Below, in pieces: positions 16,850 to 25,304 of a DNA stretch of 64,000 nucleotides. Position 1 is the first letter of the stretch, and each line of letters starts with the position of its first letter. The stretch is from Pseudomonadota bacterium. GTDB taxonomy: Bacteria; Pseudomonadota; Alphaproteobacteria; Acetobacterales; Acetobacteraceae. The stretch is taken from positions 1 to 64,000 of the forward strand of contig JAJZES010000020.1 of NCBI GenBank assembly GCA_021845985.1, read 5' to 3'. The position numbers and the translations under genes were made by a program. A model generated the notes under the pieces. It did no database searches, had not been told where the DNA came from, and saw only the letters and a list, made by a program, of their open reading frames with translations.

Positions 16850-19039
16850 ATGAGTGCATCAGTCACGTCGGCAAATTGGATTGACGTCAACTCGGTGCCC
16901 AGCGGCAGTTGGACGGACGCCACTCATTGGAGCACCGCCTCGGTGCCCGGCGTCGCGACGAGCGCCGTGATCGGTCCCAGCGTCAGTGCCTCGGCGCCGT
17001 GGACGGTGTCGCTGGCCGGCAGTCAGGCCGTCGCCGCGCTGACGCTGCAGATGGGCACGCTCGGCACCCTCTCGATCGCCGGCGCGCTGAATGTCAGCGG
17101 CAATGCGTCGATGGGCTATGGCAGCACCGGCGGCGGCACCGTCCTGCTCGGCAGCGGCGCAACCCTCGGCATCAACGGCAACTCGGTCACCCAGCAGAGC
17201 ACGTTCGAGGTCAACGGCGGCACCATCACCACGGGTGGCTTCTTCGACCTTGATGGCGATGCCGCGACCGTCTCCAACGCCGGCGTGTGGAATGCCGACA
17301 CGCTGTGGATCGGTCAGTTCTTCACCACCGGGATGAGTGTGCAGGGTGCCGGTGCCGCGATCAACGCCAGCACGGTCATCAACATCGGCGCCGACGGCAC
17401 GGCCTCCGCCCCGTTCAGCATTGGCGCCGGCACTCTCGCGGTGACCGGCGGCGCCGCAGTCAGTGCGCCGACGATGAAGATCGTCGATGGATCGGTGCTC
17501 ACCATCGACGCCACCAGTTCGGTCGATCTCCAGGCCGCCGGCGTCGCCGGTGCGGTGGCGATCGGCGCCGCCGGCACGCTGCTGCTGGAGTCGGCCAAGG
17601 TCGAGGCCAACGTGGTTGACAACGGGGCGATTGTCGCGCTGGTCAACACCGCCGGCTCGTCCTATGCGATCGGCCACGGCCCGGTGATCACCGGCGCATT
17701 GAGCGGCGCCGGCAGCGTGCATGTCGGCGGCGGTTACACCATGGAGGTCGGCAGCGCCGCCGGCTTCACCGGCAACGTCACCATCGACCCGCAATCGACC
17801 CTGGTGATCGACACCGGCGCCGGCCCCGCCGGTGCGGTCAGCATGAACAACAGCGCCATCGACCTGCGGGCGCTCACCTATGGCACCGGCGCCGGGCCGG
17901 CCCTGTCCTATTCCGGCAGCACGCTGACGGTCGGCGCCGACAGCATCGTTGTCGGCGCCGGTCTGGCGGTCGGTGATTTCACCGTCGCCGCCGACAGCAA
18001 GGGCGGCACCATCATCACCGACATCGCCTGCTATGCCGCCGGCACCCGCATCGCCGCGGCGTTCGGCGAGATCGCGGTGGAGATGCTGCGCGCCGGCGAC
18101 CTCGTGCGCACCGCCGGCGACCGGCTGGCGCCGGTCGCCTGGGTCGGGCACACCACGCTTAACCTCGACCATCATCCGGCGCCGCGTCAGGCGGCACCGG
18201 TGCGCATCGCCGCCGGCGCCTTCGCCCCCGGCCTGCCGCGGCGCGACCTGCTGGTCTCGCCCGATCATGCCATGCTGGTCGATGACGTGCTGATCCCGGC
18301 CCACCGGCTGATCAACGGCGCCAGCATCCGCCAGGACACGACGCTGCGCACGGTGCGCTACATCCATGTCGAACTCGATCGTCACGACCTGCTGCTGGCC
18401 GAGGGTCTGGCCAGCGAGAGCTATCTCGACACCGGCAACCGCGGCCAGTTCGACGGCGAGTCCGGCCGGCGCATGCTGCATCCGCGCTTCGACACCGATC
18501 CGACCGCGGCGGCGCTGCGCGCCTTCGCCGAGCGCGGCTGTGCGCCGCTGGTCCTCGACGGGGCGCTGGCGCATGCCGCGCATGCACGGCTGGCGGCGCG
18601 CGCCGAGGCGCTGGGCTGGCGGCGCAGCGCCGATCCGGCGTTGTGCTTCACCGCCGACCGGCCGGGACTGGAGGTCGCCATCGTGCTGCCGGACCTCGTG
18701 CGGCTGGCGCTGCCGCCGGGCACGCGGCAGGTCCGCATCGCCAGCCGCCGCTTCGTTCCCGACACGCAAACGCCGGGCTGCGGCGATGGCAGGCTGCTCG
18801 GCGCCGCCCTGGCGGTGGCGCTGGACGGCGCCAGACTCGACGGCGCCGCGCTCGCCGCCGGCTGGTATCCGGCCGAGGACGGCGCATCCTGGCGCTGGAC
18901 CAATGGCGATGCGGTGCTGACGCTGCCCGACAGTCCCGGCGGCCGCGTGCTGGCGGTCCATGTGGTGCCGATGGGCACACCTTACTGGGATGCGCCAAAC
19001 TGTGATGCGCCGACGCAGGCGGCCAGCCGCGCCGCCTGA
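16850..19039 (+). CDS. Beta-repeat protein with C-terminal Hint (Hedgehog/intein) domain
   Basis: Protein of 729 aa. Residues 1-390 are Gly/Ala/Thr/Ser-rich beta-strand repeats of the pectin-lyase/autotransporter-associated kind (GSGATLGINGNS, MNNSAIDLRALTYGTGAG). A Hint domain follows, with the nucleophile-position Cys394 (CYAAGTRIAAAFGEIAVEML), VAWVGH and LLVSPDHAMLVDDVLIPAH. The last about 170 residues are of unknown fold. Hint domains self-cleave or splice through the leading Cys. No signal peptide or beta-barrel is present, so export, if any, needs another route. The start follows GGGAG. Confidence 0.85.
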   Translation: MSASVTSANWIDVNSVPSGSWTDATHWSTASVPGVATSAVIGPSVSASAPWTVSLAGSQAVAALTLQMGTLGTLSIAGALNVSGNASMGYGSTGGGTVLLGSGATLGINGNSVTQQSTFEVNGGTITTGGFFDLDGDAATVSNAGVWNADTLWIGQFFTTGMSVQGAGAAINASTVINIGADGTASAPFSIGAGTLAVTGGAAVSAPTMKIVDGSVLTIDATSSVDLQAAGVAGAVAIGAAGTLLLESAKVEANVVDNGAIVALVNTAGSSYAIGHGPVITGALSGAGSVHVGGGYTMEVGSAAGFTGNVTIDPQSTLVIDTGAGPAGAVSMNNSAIDLRALTYGTGAGPALSYSGSTLTVGADSIVVGAGLAVGDFTVAADSKGGTIITDIACYAAGTRIAAAFGEIAVEMLRAGDLVRTAGDRLAPVAWVGHTTLNLDHHPAPRQAAPVRIAAGAFAPGLPRRDLLVSPDHAMLVDDVLIPAHRLINGASIRQDTTLRTVRYIHVELDRHDLLLAEGLASESYLDTGNRGQFDGESGRRMLHPRFDTDPTAAALRAFAERGCAPLVLDGALAHAAHARLAARAEALGWRRSADPALCFTADRPGLEVAIVLPDLVRLALPPGTRQVRIASRRFVPDTQTPGCGDGRLLGAALAVALDGARLDGAALAAGWYPAEDGASWRWTNGDAVLTLPDSPGGRVLAVHVVPMGTPYWDAPNCDAPTQAASRAA

Positions 19040-22249: not shown

Positions 22250-22670
22250 GGTCTTGCGGTATCCGTTTCAAGCTGCGCCCGGCGCCGCGACGCGGCTGGG
22301 CCGAAAACCCAACGAAGGCGGAACGGTCGGCAGCAGCCGGGGCGAGACGCCCATCAGATAGGTGCCGCCACCGCGCGCCGCCATAGAGCAGGATATGCAA
22401 ACGCCAACTCTTGATAGCGCGGAGGTCGTGGCGGCCTTGCCGGCGACGCCATCACGCAGGGCGGAGCGGCGGTTCTGCAACGATTTGCCTCCCCCATGCT
22501 GACGCAACCCGATGATGCGACCCGGCGACACGCACCCGCATGGTGCGGTGTTCGACCACGCTCGGGCAGCGGACTATAGGGGGCACAAGGCTTCTTACAG
22601 AAGGGAAATGTCGCGTGAGTGTCATTCTTTTCACCGATGTTAGCCTTTCCGTAATCGGAACGGAGCGGCA
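22250..22670. other. Intergenic region upstream of the Fe-S/thiolation operon
   Basis: About 420 bp between divergent genes. No protein of a known family is readable in any frame; an IscR-type regulator, which often sits here in other genomes, is absent. The last 60 bp contain a possible 19-codon leader frame. The A/T-richer stretch at about 22610-22660 is the likeliest site of transcription start signals for the downstream operon. Confidence 0.4.
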
Positions 22671-22674
22671 GTGA
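22615..22674 (+). CDS. Possible 19-aa leader peptide overlapping the desulfurase start
   Basis: A GTG preceded by AGAAGGG opens MSVILFTDVSLSVIGTERQ, whose TGA overlaps the GTG start of the first cysteine desulfurase (GTGA). The overlap has the form of a translationally coupled pair. The peptide is not Cys-rich and matches nothing known to me; its reality rests on the ribosome-binding site and the overlap alone. Confidence 0.3.
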   Translation: MSVILFTDVSLSVIGTERQ

Positions 22675-23768
22675 TCTATTTGGACGCCAATGCCAGCGAG
22701 CCGCTGCGCCAGCCGGCGCGGGAGGCGGCGCTGGCGGCAATGGGCGGTCTCGGCAACCCGTCCTCGGTCCACGCCGCCGGCCGCGCCGCGCGGCGGACGC
22801 TGGAGACGGCGCGGGAGAGTCTCGCCGTCCGCTTCGGCGCCGCCCCGGCGGAGGTGATCTTCACCTCCGGCGGCACCGAGGCGAACGCGCTCGCCGTGCA
22901 TGCGCTCGGCCGCGGCCGGCGACTGCTGACCGGCGCCACCGAGCACGACGCGATCCGCGCCGCGGCGCCTGCCGCCACGATCATCGCGGTCGATGCCGAG
23001 GGCGTCGCCGATCTCGACGCGCTGCGCCGGCTGCTGGCCGATTGCGGCCCGGCGCTGGTCTGCCTGATGCTGGCCAACAACGAGACCGGCACGCTGCAGC
23101 CGGTGGCCGAGGCCGCCGCCCTGTGCCGCGCCGCCGGCGCATGGCTGCATGTCGATGCGGTGCAGGCGGCCGGGCGTATCGACGTCGATCGCGCCGCCCT
23201 CGGCGCCGACAGTCTGGCGCTGTCGGGCCACAAGCTCGGCGGCCCGGCCGGCGCCGGGGCGCTGCTGCTCGGCCCCGCCGCCGCCGAACATATGGTGCCG
23301 CTGATCGCCGGTGGCGGGCAGGAGCGCGGGCGGCGCGGCGGTACCCCGCCGCTGCCCGCCATCGCCGGCCTCGCTGCCGCGGCGACTGCGGCAGCGACAG
23401 ACGACGCCGGCCGGCGACTGGCGCCGCTGCGCGATGCGATCGAGCAGGCGGCGCTGGCGTGCGGCGCGGTGGCACTCGGCGCCGGTGCCGCGCGCCTGCC
23501 CAACACCACCTGCCTCGCGCTGCCCGGCGTCGCCGCGCTGACCCAGGTGATCGCGCTCGACCTCGCCGGCGTCGCCGTCTCCGCCGGGGCCGCCTGCAGC
23601 TCGGGCAAGGTGGCGCGCAGCCATGTGCTGACGGCGATGGGTGCCGGGCGGCTGGCCGGCGAGGCGATCCGCGTCTCGCTGCCCTGGTCGGCCACCGCCG
23701 CCGACGCCGCCGCCTGCATCGCCGCCTATCAGGCCATGGCGGCGCGGCTTTCCCGCGCCGTCGCCTGA
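22671..23768 (+). CDS. Cysteine desulfurase-family protein, first of a tandem pair
   Basis: PLP enzyme of 365 aa of the NifS/IscS class, which takes sulfur from cysteine as a persulfide. The PLP lysine K188 lies in LSGHKLGGP and the sulfur-accepting C309 in GAACSSGKV. It opens with IYLDANASEPL where most relatives have DNAATTP. It starts with GTG. The second paralogue follows 16 bp later, then ferredoxin and mnmA, which places the pair in Fe-S cluster and tRNA 2-thiouridine synthesis. The two are far from identical, so they are old paralogues with probably divided work. Confidence 0.9.
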   Translation: MIYLDANASEPLRQPAREAALAAMGGLGNPSSVHAAGRAARRTLETARESLAVRFGAAPAEVIFTSGGTEANALAVHALGRGRRLLTGATEHDAIRAAAPAATIIAVDAEGVADLDALRRLLADCGPALVCLMLANNETGTLQPVAEAAALCRAAGAWLHVDAVQAAGRIDVDRAALGADSLALSGHKLGGPAGAGALLLGPAAAEHMVPLIAGGGQERGRRGGTPPLPAIAGLAAAATAAATDDAGRRLAPLRDAIEQAALACGAVALGAGAARLPNTTCLALPGVAALTQVIALDLAGVAVSAGAACSSGKVARSHVLTAMGAGRLAGEAIRVSLPWSATAADAAACIAAYQAMAARLSRAVA

Positions 23769-23784
23769 CGGCATCCTGCGCCGC

Positions 23785-24960
23785 ATGCCACCGCACCCCA
23801 ACCGTCCGATCTATCTCGACAACCAGGCCACCACGCCGTGCGATCCACGCGTCGTCGCCGCCATGCTGCCGCTGTTCAGCGAGGGCTTCGGCAATCCGCA
23901 CAGCGCCGAGCACGCGCTCGGCCGCGCCGCCGAGGCAGCGGTCGAGGCGGCGCGCGGCGAGGTCGCCACGCTGATCGGCGCCGAGCCGCGCGAGATCGTC
24001 TTCACCTCCGGGGCGACCGAGAGCAACAATCTGGCGATCAAGGGCGCCGCCCGCTTCGCCGCGGCGCAGGCCGACCCGCGTCGGCGCATCATAACCGTCG
24101 CCAGCGAGCATAAATGCGTCCTGGAGAGCGTCGCCGACCTCGCCGCCGAGGGGTTTTCCACCGTCGTCCTGCCGGTGCGGCCGGACGGCACGCTCGACCC
24201 GCAGGCCCTGGCGGCGGCGCTCGCCGAGCCGACGCTGCTGGTCAGCGTCATGGCGGTGAACAACGAGACCGGGGTGATCCAGGACATCGCGGCACTGGCC
24301 GCCATCGCCCGCGCCGCCGGTGCGCTGTTTCATACCGATGCCGCGCAGGCGGCGGGCAAAATCCCGCTCGATGTCGCCGGCATCGATTTGATGTCGCTCA
24401 GCGCCCACAAGCTGTACGGCCCGAAGGGGGTCGGCGCGCTCTATGTCCGCCGCCGCCCGCGGGTGCGCCTCGCGCCGCTGTTCAGCGGCGGCGGGCAGGA
24501 GCGGGGCTTGCGCTCGGGCACGCTGCCGGCGGCGCTGCTGGTCGGCTTCGGCGTCGCCTGCCGCATCGCCGCCGCCGAGATGGCCGAGGAAACGACGCGC
24601 ATCGCCGCTCTGCGCGACCGGCTGCTGGCAGAGCTTGCCGCCGCCATCCCCGGCCTCGCGCAGAACGCCGTCGGCGCGCCGCGCATCGCCGGCAACCTCA
24701 ATCTCAGCTTCCCCGCCGCCACCGCCCAGGCGCTGATGGCGGCCTGCCCCGATCTCTGCGTCTCCACCGGTTCGGCCTGTTCCTCGGCCGAGGTGGAACC
24801 CTCCTATGTGCTGCGCGCGCTCGGTCTGGACCCGGCGCGTGCGGCGCGCACCTTGCGGATCGGGGTCGGACGCTTTACCTCCGCCGCCGACATCGACTTC
24901 GCGGTCGCAGCACTGGCGGCGGCGCATGCGGCGGTGGCCGAGCAGCGAACCGGGACCTGA
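23785..24960 (+). CDS. Cysteine desulfurase, IscS-like, second of the pair
   Basis: PLP-dependent cysteine desulfurase of 391 aa, closer than its neighbour to Isc[16 protein letters not shown] at the N-terminus, K209 in [11 protein letters not shown] and the mobile-loop C332 in [15 protein letters not shown]. It supplies persulfide sulfur, presumably for Fe-S assembly with the adjacent ferredoxin and for tRNA thiolation by the nearby MnmA. An in-frame ATG at 23641 lies inside the previous gene and was rejected because the protein fold starts at MPPHPNRP. Confidence 0.95.
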
Positions 24961-24971
24961 AGCACCAATCC

Positions 24972-25304
24972 ATGCCGAAGATGACCTTTATCGACCGCGA
25001 CGGGACCCGCCGAGAGGTGGAGGCGCCGCTCGGCCTCTCGGTGCTGGAGATCGCCCACAAGCATGGCGTCGATATCGAGGGTGCGTGCGAAGGCTCGCTC
25101 GCCTGTTCGACCTGCCATGTCATCGTCGATGCCGCTTGGTTCGGCCGCCTCGCCACGCCGACCGAGGATGAGGAAGACATGCTCGACCTCGCCTTCGGGC
25201 TGGCAAAAACCTCCCGCCTCGGCTGCCAACTGGTGATGACTGCGGCGCTGGACGGGCTGGTCGTGCGCCTGCCGCCGGGCAGCCGCAATCTGCTCAACGG
25301 CTAG
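24972..25304 (+). CDS. fdx: [2Fe-2S] ferredoxin, ISC/adrenodoxin type
   Basis: Small electron carrier of 110 aa. The cluster ligands are C39, C45 and C48 ([14 protein letters not shown]) and C85 (SRLGCQL), the spacing of adrenodoxin-like ferredoxins used in Fe-S assembly. It starts 12 nt after the second cysteine desulfurase, which it probably serves as electron donor, and 12 nt before mnmA. Confidence 0.95.

Follow-up and report, generated by a model that had tools for sequence, protein, structure and literature searches.

The 64,000-nucleotide stretch of Acetobacteraceae DNA analysed here (the window) contains a gene for a 729-aa protein in which a long β-rich passenger without a signal peptide is followed by a Hint domain and a further C-terminal region. 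Such an architecture raises the question of how the protein would leave the cell and what a self-processing domain would accomplish there. The best reading of the comparisons described below is that the Hint_2 domain and the tail behind it constitute an alternative export-and-release module, perhaps also one of attachment, probably for type I secretion. A probability of about one half is given to the proposal that the window protein belongs to a large exported, self-processing family in which Hint_2 and a β-sandwich take the place of the export parts normally present in secreted adhesins and enzymes.

Anatomy and conservation of the window protein

The sole Pfam domain detected in the 729-aa protein is Hint_2 (PF13403, residues 394-528; E 1.4e-45), and its score of 155.7 bits, far above the cut-off of 28.4, rules out a chance match, in agreement with the Cys-initiated Hint domain that the first-pass annotation had placed at C394 (Table 1). 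The region behind the domain, given there as 170 residues, actually comprises ∼198-201. No NCBIfam profile matched the protein at E 1, so that TIGR04415 repeats are absent, and neither Pfam nor NCBIfam detected RTX, AIDA or other recognised repeats; a PDB sequence search returned a chance match only. The passenger (residues 1-393) consists to 65% of Gly, Ala, Ser, Thr, and Val and to ∼2% of Lys, Arg, and Glu, and its halves align with each other better than 298 of 300 shuffles, so that "repetitive beta" is a fair label for these ∼390 residues, though no known repeat family matches. Elsewhere in the window (∼22640-25300), inspection by eye suggests two neighbouring ORFs with NifS/IscS-type aminotransferase-like starts, followed by an MnmA-like start.

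Table 1. Coordinates of the gene and its parts in the window.
Feature	Position	Strand	Remarks
ORF	16850-19039	+	729 aa, ATG start
N-terminal passenger, residues 1-393	16850..18028	+	β-rich, hardly any charged residues, no signal peptide
Hint_2 domain, residues 394-531, Cys394 to GNR motif	18029..18442	+	PF13403, AF2 fold, ortholog identity
Cys394, residue 1 of Hint and putative nucleophile; Ala393-Cys394 is the bond predicted to be cut	18029..18031	+	Invariant Cys column
Block B, S470-P-D-H473	18257..18268	+	Invariant [ST] and His columns
E523-S524, place of intein/BIL C-terminal His-Asn (block G)	18416..18421	+	Glu then Ser/Thr in all domains aligned
C-terminal region, residues 566-729: one helix and β-sandwich, Arg-Ala-Ala end	18545..19036	+	AF2, profile in paralogs

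Full-length orthologs adjoin alaS in three genus-mates, as in the window, and the gene is therefore real and conserved. Conservation among these proteins is highest in Hint_2 (69-70% identity, compared with 46-54% for the passenger and 50-53% for the tail). For two further records, L064 and L065, the alignment figures equalled those of the orthologs in G001 and G002; these records probably represent the same genomes and were not counted in addition.

The domain itself is far from rare. The genome containing the window encodes 22 Hint_2 domains, including the window copy, with similar counts in genus-mates, and 96 of the 120 genomes sampled from its own family (apparently Acetobacteraceae) carry Hint_2, which amounts to 627 copies, with a maximum of 26 in a single genome. 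The window protein is therefore less singular than it first appeared, and taken alone it is an ordinary member of the Hint_2 family. In two genomes from another family of the class (G144 and G275), 13-17 Hint_2 domains per genome were found, most of them in frames only 180-600 aa long. In the searchable literature, Hint_2 appears merely as an annotation or list entry.

The Hint_2 domain and its predicted chemistry

An AF2 model of the Hint domain plus tail, built from 69 sequences, reached a pLDDT of 92.5, and in Foldseek searches the solved folds nearest to it belonged to inteins and BIL domains (E 1e-5 to 1e-3). VIA-align gave a Z of 13.1 to the Clostridium BIL 2lwy (116 residues, rmsd 2.1) and of 11.0 to hedgehog 1at0. 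The first-pass annotation had let its proposal hinge on catalytic residues in a structural model, and the model contains a complete Hint fold with Cys394 and the block-B Ser and His.

Conservation of the catalytic columns was counted over all domains by profile alignment, because the columns of an earlier alignment, drawn from motif-picked loci, are biased (alignments A2 and A4 hold 68 of the 79 related loci, nine having been missed by the motif pattern and L081 and L124 by length; alignment A3 holds 48 of the 54 complete related proteins, six being left out). Counted in this way, residue 1 is Cys in 22/22 own domains and in all 84 related domains in which this column is covered, and the block-B [ST]-x-x-H motif is found in 22/22 own and 86/86 related domains; additional columns, of His and Glu, do not vary either. 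The residue preceding Cys1 is mostly Ala or Pro (19/22 own, 69/84 related). At the block-G place, Glu occupies the column in all 22 own and 86 related domains and is followed by Ser or Thr in every case; in the window protein this is E523-S524, which we take to be the block-G position on the basis of where the structural alignment ends and of the motifs known for these domains. When the protein is compared with inteins, the C-terminal Asn and the +1 nucleophile are absent, Glu-Ser replaces His-Asn, and the Hint domain is flanked by a passenger and a constant tail. Type B BILs, which lack block G, are described in the accessible text of two sources as cleaving without splicing (PMC4031507; PMC7765530). 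As judged from its sequence, the Hint_2 domain of the window protein is quite likely to cleave N-terminally at Ala393-Cys394, and from Glu-Ser in place of His-Asn together with the descriptions of type B BILs, cleavage is predicted at this bond alone, without C-terminal cleavage.

Passengers, missing export parts, and the C-terminal tail

Of the 22 own Hint_2 copies, 18 were searched with Pfam and 14 with NCBIfam. By these profiles AIDA repeats form the passenger of the own paralogs L001, L014, and L019 and, weakly, of L004 and L006, TIGR04415 being over its cut-off in 3 of the 14 copies scanned. Other own paralogs comprise a serralysin with M10_C and RTX-type repeats (L008), a protein with a Lipase_3 passenger (L015), one with a weak metalloprotease match (L011), and one in which a glycosyltransferase follows the Hint domain (L002). 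Recognised passengers are a minority among 49 proteins (the window protein and 48 related ones), with Matrixin in four and a β-helix in two. Two frames stood out for other reasons. In L024:4871-10531 (−), an 1887-aa protein of unusual architecture has Hint_2 in mid-protein followed by a group 1 glycosyltransferase, and a 419-aa frame with RTX repeats (G000:C28:32133-32615; L227, L228) provides the only RTX match of its genome besides the Hint_2 serralysin.

Signal-peptide-like starts were recognised by a crude rule in 0 of the 18 own Hint_2 copies with an assignable start and in 6 of 61 related Hint_2 proteins, compared with 44 of 231 background ORFs. The rule, loosened after its first version missed this control, detects the signal of the DegP-like protein encoded nearby, and by it the window protein does lack a signal peptide, as had been noted on first inspection. 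The autotransporter barrel PF03797 is absent from the window protein and was not recognised in any of the five genus genomes searched.

The constant element of these proteins lies behind the Hint domain. Modelled alone by AF2, residues 566-729 form one helix and a β-sandwich (pLDDT 93.1). The tail is known in general architecture only, because Foldseek found nothing below 1e-3 and the best structural comparison, with the tail protein of an archaeal virus, reached a Z of 7.6; CBM35 modules scored ∼5, and both were dropped as relatives since the listed matches are weak. Most related Hint_2 domains are followed by a tail of ∼180-200 residues, nearly as constant in length as Hint_2 itself, and a profile recovered the tail family, in frame, from another 15 own paralogs. 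The own copies L042 (G000:C12 ∼140997-142381) and L025 (G000:C5 ∼91853-92813), two out of 22, have tail and Hint in different frames, as after a frameshift or assembly error. C-termini ending in -AA are carried by 7/22 own Hint_2 proteins compared with 10/209 background ORFs, and by 33/83 related proteins compared with 17/324. This enrichment would fit a C-terminal secretion signal and is suggestive only, a degron being conceivable as well.

Association with an autotransporter heptosyltransferase

TIGR04414 (Aah/TibC) is over its cut-off in 31 of the 120 family genomes, among them the own genome, and all 31 contain Hint_2, compared with 96/120 overall (p = 3e-4). The 40 heptosyltransferase regions fetched, which cover 48 of the 51 matches over cut-off, hold Hint_2 in 12 cases where 2.1 would be expected if Hint_2 genes were placed uniformly. 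In eight of the 40 regions a Hint_2 ORF starts 26-182 bp downstream of the heptosyltransferase on the same strand, and TIGR04415 is over cut-off in six of the seven such proteins scanned and just under it in the remaining one. This order, heptosyltransferase followed by AIDA-type Hint_2 gene, is that of aah-aidA, Hint_2 standing where the barrel would be. The heptosyltransferase gene of the own genome does not adjoin any Hint_2 gene. TIGR04414 enzymes are described in available parts of the literature as modifying AIDA-type passengers (PMC4358343), and O-heptosyltransferase genes are mentioned in passing together with hint-domain proteins in Acetobacteraceae polyketide clusters in the accessible text of another source (PMC8776678).

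A candidate type I exporter

The first-pass annotation had pointed to linked type I secretion genes as something to be sought in the genome; a candidate exporter with HlyD and a HlyB-like ABC protein is indeed present, but is not linked to the window gene. The own genome contains one clear pair, composed of an ABC protein most similar to HlyB (542.7 bits, below the cut-off of 725.55) and a HlyD protein over cut-off, which is followed by a Sel1 protein and then by a two-domain glycosyltransferase; TIGR01842 remains below cut-off in all five genus genomes. This order is kept in 35 of 44 regions, eight others being cut by contig ends and one lacking the rest. The operon (for example L183:8309-16827 (−), with the same operon in L184-L226) is widely conserved and contains no obvious substrate gene. 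In L170 (G057:C62:44000-63999), a heptosyltransferase gene lies ∼2.5 kb downstream of it on the same strand.

The generic HlyD profile was useless as a discriminator, with matches in 120/120 genomes and over cut-off in 114 (93/96 with Hint_2 and 21/24 without; p = 0.09). The operon glycosyltransferase is found in 78 of the 96 genomes with Hint_2 and in 4 of the 24 without (p = 6e-9 for co-occurrence, kinship being ignored), a strict count that drops two genomes with distant matches (33-36% identity) and becomes 80/96 versus 4/24 with them. All 21 genomes having at least 10 Hint_2 domains carry it. Flagellin, used as a control, occurs in 81/96 and 18/24 genomes, respectively (p = 0.37). Physical linkage of Hint_2 genes with the operon is not supported, as they lie near it in just one of the 44 regions, and the C-terminal glycosyltransferase of L002 was dropped as a bridge to the operon since no BLASTP match was obtained. 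Eighteen of the 96 Hint_2 genomes lack the operon glycosyltransferase. Outside the own family the co-occurrence fails in both directions, as, among genomes sampled across the class, two from another family (13 and 17 Hint_2) have no match to the operon glycosyltransferase and four match it without having Hint_2. What ties Hint_2 to the operon is co-occurrence and not any adjacency; export by type I secretion is rated about as likely as not.

Relation to known self-processing and export systems

Hint_2 shares with type B BILs Cys1 and the block-B [ST]-x-x-H motif (C394, S470, and H473) and the lack of a block-G His-Asn, a likeness judged from the descriptions in accessible parts of PMC4031507, where neither a constant β-sandwich tail nor links to the heptosyltransferase and type I secretion are mentioned. 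The Hedgehog (Hog) domain likewise has the common Hint fold, an N-terminal passenger, and a further C-terminal region, and dispenses with a C-terminal Asn step, whereas the window protein has no Hedgehog signal domain (Pfam detects Hint_2 only) and its tail is a β-sandwich of ∼160 residues. With the adhesins AIDA-I and TibA and their modifying enzymes Aah and TibC, the common features are TIGR04415 repeats in paralogs and relatives and, in relatives, a heptosyltransferase directly upstream; unlike these adhesins, the Hint_2 proteins have neither signal peptide nor β-barrel and carry Hint_2 and the tail at the C-terminus, and the repeats are absent from the window protein. FrpC and other RTX proteins of type I secretion resemble it in having no N-terminal signal, a C-terminal tail, and self-processing, which for the window protein is predicted. 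The window protein lacks RTX repeats, however, and the FrpC module cuts Asp-Pro with calcium and is not described as a Hint domain in the available text of PMC3034196. There, FrpC self-processing is termed "clip-and-link", and the number of predicted RTX proteins weakly similar to Hedgehog/Intein is given as nine.

Proposed mechanism and alternatives

From these comparisons we infer an export route, a cleavage, and the release of a passenger. The proposal of the first-pass annotation, that the N-terminal part may be released or esterified after self-processing, possibly as a surface or secreted factor, is supported in part, by the Hint fold with its catalytic residues, the missing signal peptide, the secreted-type passengers of paralogs, and the candidate type I exporter. 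The chain would be made without a signal peptide and would leave the cell C-terminus first, most likely via type I secretion, with the signal in the tail. The Hint domain would then fold and Cys394 form a thioester at Ala393, upon which the passenger may be freed by hydrolysis or handed to an acceptor held by the tail. A more elaborate conjecture, which is considered unlikely, is a Hedgehog-like sorting in Acetobacteraceae. Hint_2 and the β-sandwich tail would constitute a common address for diverse passengers, some of them heptosylated in the cytoplasm; the ABC-HlyD-Sel1-glycosyltransferase machine would be dedicated to exporting them tail first; and the Hint domain would move the C-terminus of the passenger to a tail-bound surface acceptor (glycan or lipid), a covalent fixing as performed by Gram-positive sortases.

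A self-processing secreted or surface protein could also travel by another route, such as two-partner secretion, Tat or Sec by way of a signal that escaped recognition, or a system not yet described; the co-occurrence with type I secretion would then reflect lifestyle or ancestry. The dispersed location of operon and Hint_2 genes, the Hint_2-rich genomes of another family (f23) and the own-family genomes that lack the operon glycosyltransferase, and the absence of RTX repeats from most passengers all point that way. Such a route is nevertheless somewhat doubtful, given that flagellin, of similar prevalence, shows no association, that the PF03797 barrel is absent from the genus, and that the own serralysin/RTX-type paralog belongs to a kind using type I secretion.

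That Hint_2 has lost its cleaving activity and acts instead as a rigid structural element, or one akin to a chaperone, in the folding of β passengers is improbable in view of the invariance of Cys1, of the block-B motif, and of the further His and Glu columns, and of Hint_2 being the best conserved part of the orthologs, although the nearly constant length of the tail behind it would suit a structural role. Ends in -AA resemble ssrA tags, and their enrichment, together with the missing signal peptide, would also be expected of an intracellular protein whose -AA end is a ClpX-type degron and no part of an export signal; as the passengers of the paralogs are of extracellular types, this is very improbable. 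Export and self-processing through Hint_2 and its tail remain the preferred reading.

Significance

Hint_2 domains, BIL cleavage, heptosylated adhesins, and type I secretion are each already known. What is new here is the absence of signal peptides from the testable own copies (0/18), the secreted-type passengers of the paralogs, the barrel-free genus, and the links to the heptosyltransferase and to the operon. Within the literature searched, to which subscription papers, including the founding BIL paper, do not belong, neither Hint_2 as a replacement for an autotransporter translocator nor its co-occurrence with an ABC-HlyD-Sel1-glycosyltransferase operon was found.

Should the tail serve for export and release or for attachment, the purpose of the Hint_2 proteins would be explained, and adhesin passengers would be shown to switch between two unrelated export strategies. 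The family would then also provide a bacterial relative of Hedgehog processing that could be tested in acetic acid bacteria. The dedicated export machine indicated by the comparison makes the purpose of the very common, unstudied Hint_2 tails testable.
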